In this document: positions 38,612-39,472 of the stretch, in pieces
How the letters are laid out: the number at the start of each line of letters is the position of its first letter
Position numbering within the stretch: the stretch's first letter is position 1
Source of the DNA: Candidatus Zhuqueibacterota bacterium
GTDB lineage: Bacteria; Zhuqueibacterota; Zhuqueibacteria; Oceanimicrobiales; Oceanimicrobiaceae
DNA: 64,000 nt
Assembly: GCA_029262055.1 (NCBI GenBank)
Contig: JAJDAD010000090.1
Span: 1 to 64,000, forward strand
Reading direction: 5' to 3'
Program-made: the position numbers and the translations under genes
The notes under the pieces: model-generated
The model's database searches: none
What the model was told of the DNA's origin: nothing
The model's input: only the letters and a program-made list of their open reading frames with translations

Positions 38612-38695
38612 CTCACGGCTTCCTAAGCCACAGCCCAAAACGCAAGAAGTACTTTTAGGCGGCCTGCCGCTGCTAACCCACTGAACGGAGTACGA

Positions 38696-39472
38696 ATGAG
38701 TGAAGACATACTTGTAGGACATGACCTGGAGATCTCGAGCCTCCCTCGGCAGACCTGGGAAAAGGAGCTGGCAGAGGCGCCGGCACGAATCCGCGAGACG
38801 CTGGATTTCATGTCCAACGATCACCATCTTGTGCGCAATCATGTCGTCCGCGAACTCCCTCGGTTGGGTCGGCCAATGCGGTCGCTCGAGATATCACAGG
38901 CGCTGGGATTGTCCTTGCCGCGCACCGAGCAGATCCTCACAGATCTCGAGAAACAACTTTTCTTTTTTGTCCGCAATCACAATGGTAACGTCTCGTGGGC
39001 CTTTCCGGTTACGGTCGACCGCACTGCGCATCACCTGGTCTTCAGTACAGGCGAGAGGCTGGACGCTGCCTGAGCGGAGGACGCGATGGCGACCCCCTTC
39101 GTGCAAGGGCAATTACGGGGCATCGAACTCTCCGTAGAAATTGAAACCGAATGCGCACACTGCCAAAAGCGCATGCGCTTTGCTGTCGACCACGAGCTGA
39201 ACCACAGCGTGTTGGAAGGAGGGCCCGAACCCCTGCTCTTTGAGCCGGACGTCGATTGGGATTCCTTCAGCGACCCGAATATCATTGACGGTTACTGAAA
39301 CAAGAGCCTCTTCTTCTGGTCAGAAGAACACGCCCGCGAGTATCGAGCCAGGTCCGGACAGGTGGATGGCACGTACCTCACACTCAGCCAAAGCGCCTAC
39401 TCCACCAAAATCGCTCAGGGTGCGCTGTTTGGCTTTGGAGCAGCCTCTAATGAGAACGAGACTGTCGAATAA
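38696..39472 (+). CDS. merB-like: MerB-like organomercurial lyase with two in-frame UGA (probable selenocysteine) codons
   Basis: 258 codons if UGA codons 126 (39071-39073) and 201 (39296-39298) are read through; the frame stays the same across both and ends at TAA 39470. GGAGTACGA precedes the ATG. An N-terminal winged-helix part ('LGRPMRSLEISQALGLSLPRTEQIL') matches that of MerB. Around UGA 1 the sequence is RLDAA-U-AED-AM...PFVQG against RLYAW-C96-ALD-TL...ALIG of plasmid R831b MerB, so UGA falls on Cys96 and Asp129 on catalytic Asp99. Around UGA 2, GY-U-NKSLFF aligns with SF-C159-CHVHFF, so UGA falls on Cys159. MerB uses these three residues to break C-Hg bonds. A SECIS-like hairpin follows each UGA. 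Read conventionally it would be three short fragments, each cut exactly at a catalytic Cys, which is implausible by chance. Confidence 0.8.
39095..39109 (+). promoter_or_regulatory. SECIS-like hairpin for the first UGA
   Basis: CCCTT - CGTGC - AAGGG, 5-bp stem. The apical loop has G as its second base, and the loop G lies about 27 bases after the UGA at 39071, inside the 16-37 base range usual for bacterial SECIS. The stem is short, so alone it is weak evidence. Confidence 0.5.
39311..39328 (+). promoter_or_regulatory. SECIS-like hairpin for the second UGA
   Basis: TTCTTCT - GGTC - AGAAGAA, a perfect 7-bp stem with loop GGUC, the same bases as the SelB-contacting loop of E. coli fdhF. The loop starts 20 bases after the UGA at 39296. 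Confidence 0.7.

Follow-up and report, generated by a model that had tools for sequence, protein, structure and literature searches.

A MerB-family protein with predicted selenocysteine at both catalytic metal-ligand positions, a probable organometal lyase

The MerB-like organometallic lyase SaoL (NCBIfam NF040728) takes its name from the selenocysteine-assisted organometallic operon (Sao). It is catalogued with one selenocysteine (Sec), placed in a CU motif, and is the one MerB-like selenoprotein, with its single Sec, in the selenoprotein reviews of 2022 and 2026. In MerB itself, Cys96, Asp99, and Cys159 are described as essential, and Cys117 completes the canonical signature (PMC8261052); the steps by which MerB releases mercury have also been treated (PMC4525700). 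MerB occurs without MerA in slightly more than half of the genomes that carry merB, an arrangement left unexplained, and surveys of merB have screened annotated proteins for both Cys96 and Cys159 (PMC8261052). Here we describe a gene in a 64-kb window (the whole 64,000-nucleotide stretch of DNA analyzed) from a Candidatus Zhuqueibacterota bacterium. Its product is best explained, and with good probability, as a MerB-family selenoprotein that carries Sec at both catalytic metal-ligand positions and acts as an organometal lyase.

The coding sequence lies on the forward strand at positions 38696 to 39472 and specifies 258 residues followed by TAA; a Shine-Dalgarno-like GGAG (38687 to 38690) stands 5 bases 5' of its ATG. 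As the first-pass annotation had reported, the frame is interrupted only by in-frame TGA, at codons 126 (39071 to 39073) and 201 (39296 to 39298). By itself such a frame is weak evidence, because frames broken by TGA alone often arise by chance; the window holds 68 of at least 250 codons. The same count lends some footing to a reading in which the UGAs are real stops, whether in a pseudogene, through assembly error, or as the end of a 125-residue product, or are translated as Cys or Trp under an altered code. Support for the full-length coding sequence comes from Pfam, from a frame conserved in 81 sequences, and from AlphaFold2 and Foldseek.

The read-through protein matched the Pfam MerB family in its broad sense (PF03243) at an E value of 1.4e-10, scoring 41.7 bits for the whole protein against a cut-off of 27; the match covers residues 110 to 232, a range that includes both UGAs, and 60 of 60 family members matched this model at 0.001 or better. 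Its AlphaFold2 model (pLDDT 94.4, pTM 0.90) had significant Foldseek matches in the PDB to MerB and MerB2 only (E value, 2.6e-11; TM score to the target, at most 0.83). A phmmer search of the PDB with the single window sequence found no MerB match, but a profile of 60 members did, reaching MerB2 (5c17) at 8.9e-8 and R831b MerB (1s6l) at 1.3e-4. All three approaches bore out the MerB-like identity first proposed from the sequence. Alignment of the profile to R831b MerB, with the numbering verified, placed U126 at C96, D129 at D99, C153 at C117, and U201 at C159, the same result as had been reached by eye for the two UGAs and the aspartate. Asp129 (39080 to 39082), the equivalent of catalytic Asp99, is invariant in all 81 family sequences, and within Cys153-x-x-Cys156 (39152 to 39163) the first cysteine, equivalent to MerB Cys117, is present in 80 of 81 and the second in 76 of 81.

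The window protein thus has the fold, the Asp99 and Cys117 equivalents, and the ligand positions of R831b MerB (3F0O, 1S6L) and MerB2 (5C17). It differs from them in having Sec for both ligand cysteines, where the canonical definition requires Cys at 96 and 159 (PMC8261052), in its identity of only ∼16%, and in its 40 to 50 extra N-terminal residues; genes of the window type, moreover, show no linkage to MerA or to a mer operon. SaoL is likewise a MerB-related selenoprotein and gave the best NCBIfam match by E value (2.8e-8), yet the window protein scored 33.9 bits against the SaoL cut-off of 140. Whereas SaoL is catalogued with a single Sec in a CU motif, the window protein has two, 75 codons apart, neither of them preceded by Cys. 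The NCBIfam MerB model was also matched below its cut-off, and no model of the June 2026 release reached its own cut-off for this protein. As judged from its sequence, it belongs to the MerB family; its two Sec set it apart from canonical MerB, and its score and motif distinguish it from SaoL.

To our knowledge, very few catalytic metal sites have Sec at both ligands, and we found no account of such a site in an organomercurial lyase. The 2026 selenoproteome review lists no double-Sec MerB, and full-text searches for MerB together with selenocysteine or selenoprotein returned no other description, Haft and Gwadz 2023 and Haft and Tolstoy 2025 being covered through the table in that review. The first-pass annotation knew of no described MerB with two Sec, which agrees with these searches, with the qualification that a single-Sec relative, SaoL, was already known.

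Homologues were sought in several collections. Among 99 related genomes we found one full-length homologue (L024), from another class of the same phylum, with 50% identity to the window protein and UGA at the same two codons. Single-sequence scans of genome contigs and of viral contigs and a tblastn search of plasmids returned no relatives, nor did a scan of viral contigs with a two-row alignment. The same two-row alignment scanned against GTDB genome contigs returned 100 relatives, of which 80 were retained (L027 to L106); after omission of the duplicate L041, which lies on the same contig as L024, the family comprised 81 distinct sequences including that of the window. Their hosts include Acidobacteriota, Chloroflexota, deltaproteobacterial lineages, Myxococcota, Nitrospirota, Rokuibacteriota, Abyssobacteria, and Binatia, among others. 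Because the GTDB scan relied on peptide patterns, it was repeated on 388 genomes with a profile free of codon patterns. Full-length members were found in 5 of the 388, all five with two UGAs; one of these genomes (G373) is closed and consists of a single contig. The search also gave two divergent Cys-only relatives.

Across the 81 sequences, codon 201 was UGA in every case and codon 126 in 78, the remaining three (L034, L092, and L094) having Cys; no residue other than these occurred at either site, and the two UGAs were 75 codons apart in nearly all members. Identity to the window protein climbs past each UGA, from 45% to 49% to 57%, so that the sequence is kept beyond both codons at the protein level as well as, as described below, at the RNA level. 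The same pair of UGAs in ∼80 independent genomes, closed ones among them, excludes assembly error and argues against a pseudogene. Reassignment of UGA is opposed by its use as a normal stop in 13 of 33 long open reading frames in the window and as the true stop at the end of 39 of 82 family genes.

The first-pass annotation had also seen a hairpin 3' of each UGA, and both recur at a fixed distance from their own UGA. SECIS 1, with core CCCUU-CGUGC-AAGGG (39095 to 39109; with its flanking pair, (G)CCCUU-CGUGC-AAGGG(C)), has a CGUGC loop, and SECIS 2, UUCUUCU-GGUC-AGAAGAA (39311 to 39328), has a GGUC loop; each lies on the forward strand. Single-sequence folding energies of the hairpins were no better than those of shuffles, so the case for them is one of conservation and covariation. 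When 240 codon columns were ranked by synonymous freezing, the top 11 (codons 133 to 138 and 206, 207, and 209 to 211) all fell inside the two hairpins, and freezing was higher in the stretches after the UGAs than in the rest of the gene (Mann-Whitney P = 1.3e-5). In stem 1, 511 of 546 cells are paired, a level equaled by none of 1,000 shuffles, and in four sequences a C-G pair has become U-A by changes on both sides. The hairpin is lost, with two broken pairs each, in two of the three members with Cys at site 126 (L034 and L092) and intact in the third (L094).

For stem 2 the window's subfamily alone is too conserved to display covariation, which emerges when two further MerB-type subfamilies (described below) are added. 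Over the three subfamilies, 694 of its 700 cells are paired, no shuffle being as good, and the GGUC loop is present in 100 of 100 members. The pair that closes the loop is U-A in subfamily 1, and all 19 sequences of subfamilies 2 and 3 have C-G there; this change turns Trp into Arg while the loop is kept, which indicates that it is the RNA that is conserved. With the shared UGAs, the conservation past them, the frozen and covarying SECIS elements, and UGA stops elsewhere, we rejected a pseudogene, an assembly error, and a reassigned UGA, and we consider real stops or a changed code extremely improbable.

The genome of the window encodes the machinery that such decoding would require: selA, selB, a tRNA-Sec with a UCA anticodon (selC), and selD were all found, as the first-pass annotation had suggested checking. 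The selD gene is itself a selenoprotein gene, with an in-frame UGA in the active-site motif HTVACAGU, and it adjoins selB on contig C3 of this genome (G000; L018, L002). Of 49 other host genomes, 43 had a selB match above the cut-off; set against the 21.5% of bacteria reported to use Sec (PMC5029168), this gives P = 7e-23 on the assumption that the genomes are independent, which is not fully so. No selB match was found in six draft host genomes (those of L035, L036, L053, L055, L066, and L076). Sec is, on this comparative evidence, almost certainly inserted at both UGA126 and UGA201, selenium incorporation itself being predicted; SelB and tRNA-Sec would decode each UGA with the aid of the SECIS hairpin that follows it.

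Pfam MerB scans of the host genomes revealed two further subfamilies of MerB selenoproteins. Subfamily 2 (L113 to L118, L120, L153, and L159; motif QUGFESLAV ... YAUSTMNLFRSEEH), a distant relative of the window's subfamily, shares with it Sec at both sites, but Asp99 is replaced by Glu, and its SECIS 1, with a GGUC loop, differs from that of subfamily 1. Subfamily 3 (L108, L110 to L112, L147, L150 to L152, L157, and L162) shares Sec at the Cys159 site but has Cys at the Cys96 site; a gene of this kind is present in three genomes (G001, G003, and G007) of the family to which the window's genome belongs. In both subfamilies the UGA at the Cys159 site is followed, at the same distance as in the window gene, by a homologous GGUC-loop SECIS. 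No NCBIfam model reached its own cut-off for the tested members of either one. Several genomes (G099, G119, G125, and G144) have two or three MerB-type selenoprotein genes each, often from different subfamilies. In the 388-genome sample, Pfam MerB gave 21 matches, of which 10 had no in-frame UGA, 6 had one, and 5 had two.

The subfamilies form separate, well-supported clades, and the tree leaves their relation to canonical MerB unsettled. Every complete member examined in the three has Sec at the Cys159 site, while the Cys96 site holds Sec or Cys, a pattern which suggests that Sec arose earlier or matters more at the Cys159 site; an incomplete fragment resembling subfamily 3 (L163) has Cys there. 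The window gene clusters with genes of Acidobacteriota and Chloroflexota and not with that of its phylum-mate, which suggests horizontal transfer.

The surroundings of the gene do not resemble a mer operon. Its neighbors encode a SpoIIE-type phosphatase, a glyoxalase-like protein, and a SnoaL-like protein, all unrelated to mer, and a search for conserved operon partners across the family loci found none. MerA above its family cut-off was absent from the window's genome (G000) and from 49 of 51 genomes, being present in 2 of the 51; matches below the cut-off, most likely related flavoprotein disulfide reductases, were not counted. With MerA in just two genomes, the gene does not belong to a standard mer system. 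At ten loci, nine deltaproteobacterial and one from Nitrospirae, a regulator lies directly upstream, of MerR type at six (L062, L074, L087, L089, L096, and L100), where it is without the mercury-sensing cysteine set, and of MarR type at four (L053, L067, L098, and L106).

These features bear on the substrate. A double selenoprotein of MerB fold might act on something other than organomercury, either another organometal or organometalloid or a methylated metabolite, along the lines suggested for the Sao genes. The near absence of MerA, the want of adjoining mer genes, the weak match of all members to the SaoL model, and the six MerR-type regulators without mercury-binding cysteines are consistent with such a substrate. 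The complete MerB triad with its invariant Asp129 argues the other way, and a missing MerA loses force where slightly over half of merB genomes are in the same position (PMC8261052). We regard a non-mercury substrate as a real but rather unlikely alternative. The intact Sec/Asp/Sec site makes organometal protonolysis the best-supported reading, and by analogy with MerB we favor lyase activity of this type, with reasonable rather than high confidence; methylmercury as the main substrate is plausible, at somewhat less than even chances. Of the original proposal that selenolates replace both thiols of an organomercurial lyase, the two Sec positions are upheld, and the organomercury substrate and the activity itself stay inferences, MerA being missing from this genome and from nearly all other host genomes.

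If the enzyme works as MerB does, its pair of selenolates would coordinate the metal of an organometal cation and loosen its carbon-metal bond, Asp129 would then give a proton to the carbon, releasing an alkane (methane in the case of methylmercury), and the metal would end up held between the two selenolates. Bonds between mercury and selenium are very strong. Two selenolates would hold the product still more tightly, so that turnover would be slow unless some other acceptor exists; release of the metal should be harder, and this counts against a lyase. The strength of these bonds, together with the paired selenolates and the lack of a MerA to take the metal, would equally fit a protein that binds or sequesters mercury or another soft metal permanently and without turnover. 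Asp129, however, would be needed for protonolysis only and yet is invariant in 81 of 81 sequences, and its counterpart in subfamily 2 is Glu, likewise an acid. Such a metal trap therefore seems improbable to us, and we retain organometal protonolysis as the preferred reading.

Screening of annotated proteins for Cys96 and Cys159 would miss genes of the window type or cut them at codon 125, and since 11 of the 21 Pfam MerB matches in the 388 genomes contain one or two in-frame UGAs, the missed part may equal the known part. Tentatively, these genes may represent widespread, uncatalogued, MerA-independent lyases of organometals, probably methylmercury, with a bis-selenolate metal site. Three MerB-type subfamilies have Sec at the Cys159 position, and two have it at the Cys96 position; if the reading holds, selenium-based demethylation would be widespread among uncultured bacteria in sediments, peat, and groundwater, yet invisible to present annotation, which breaks its genes into short fragments, and to merB surveys that require cysteines. 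This would bear on which organisms degrade environmental methylmercury and on how MerB works without MerA, and it points to an undescribed, selenium-based handling of toxic organometals.
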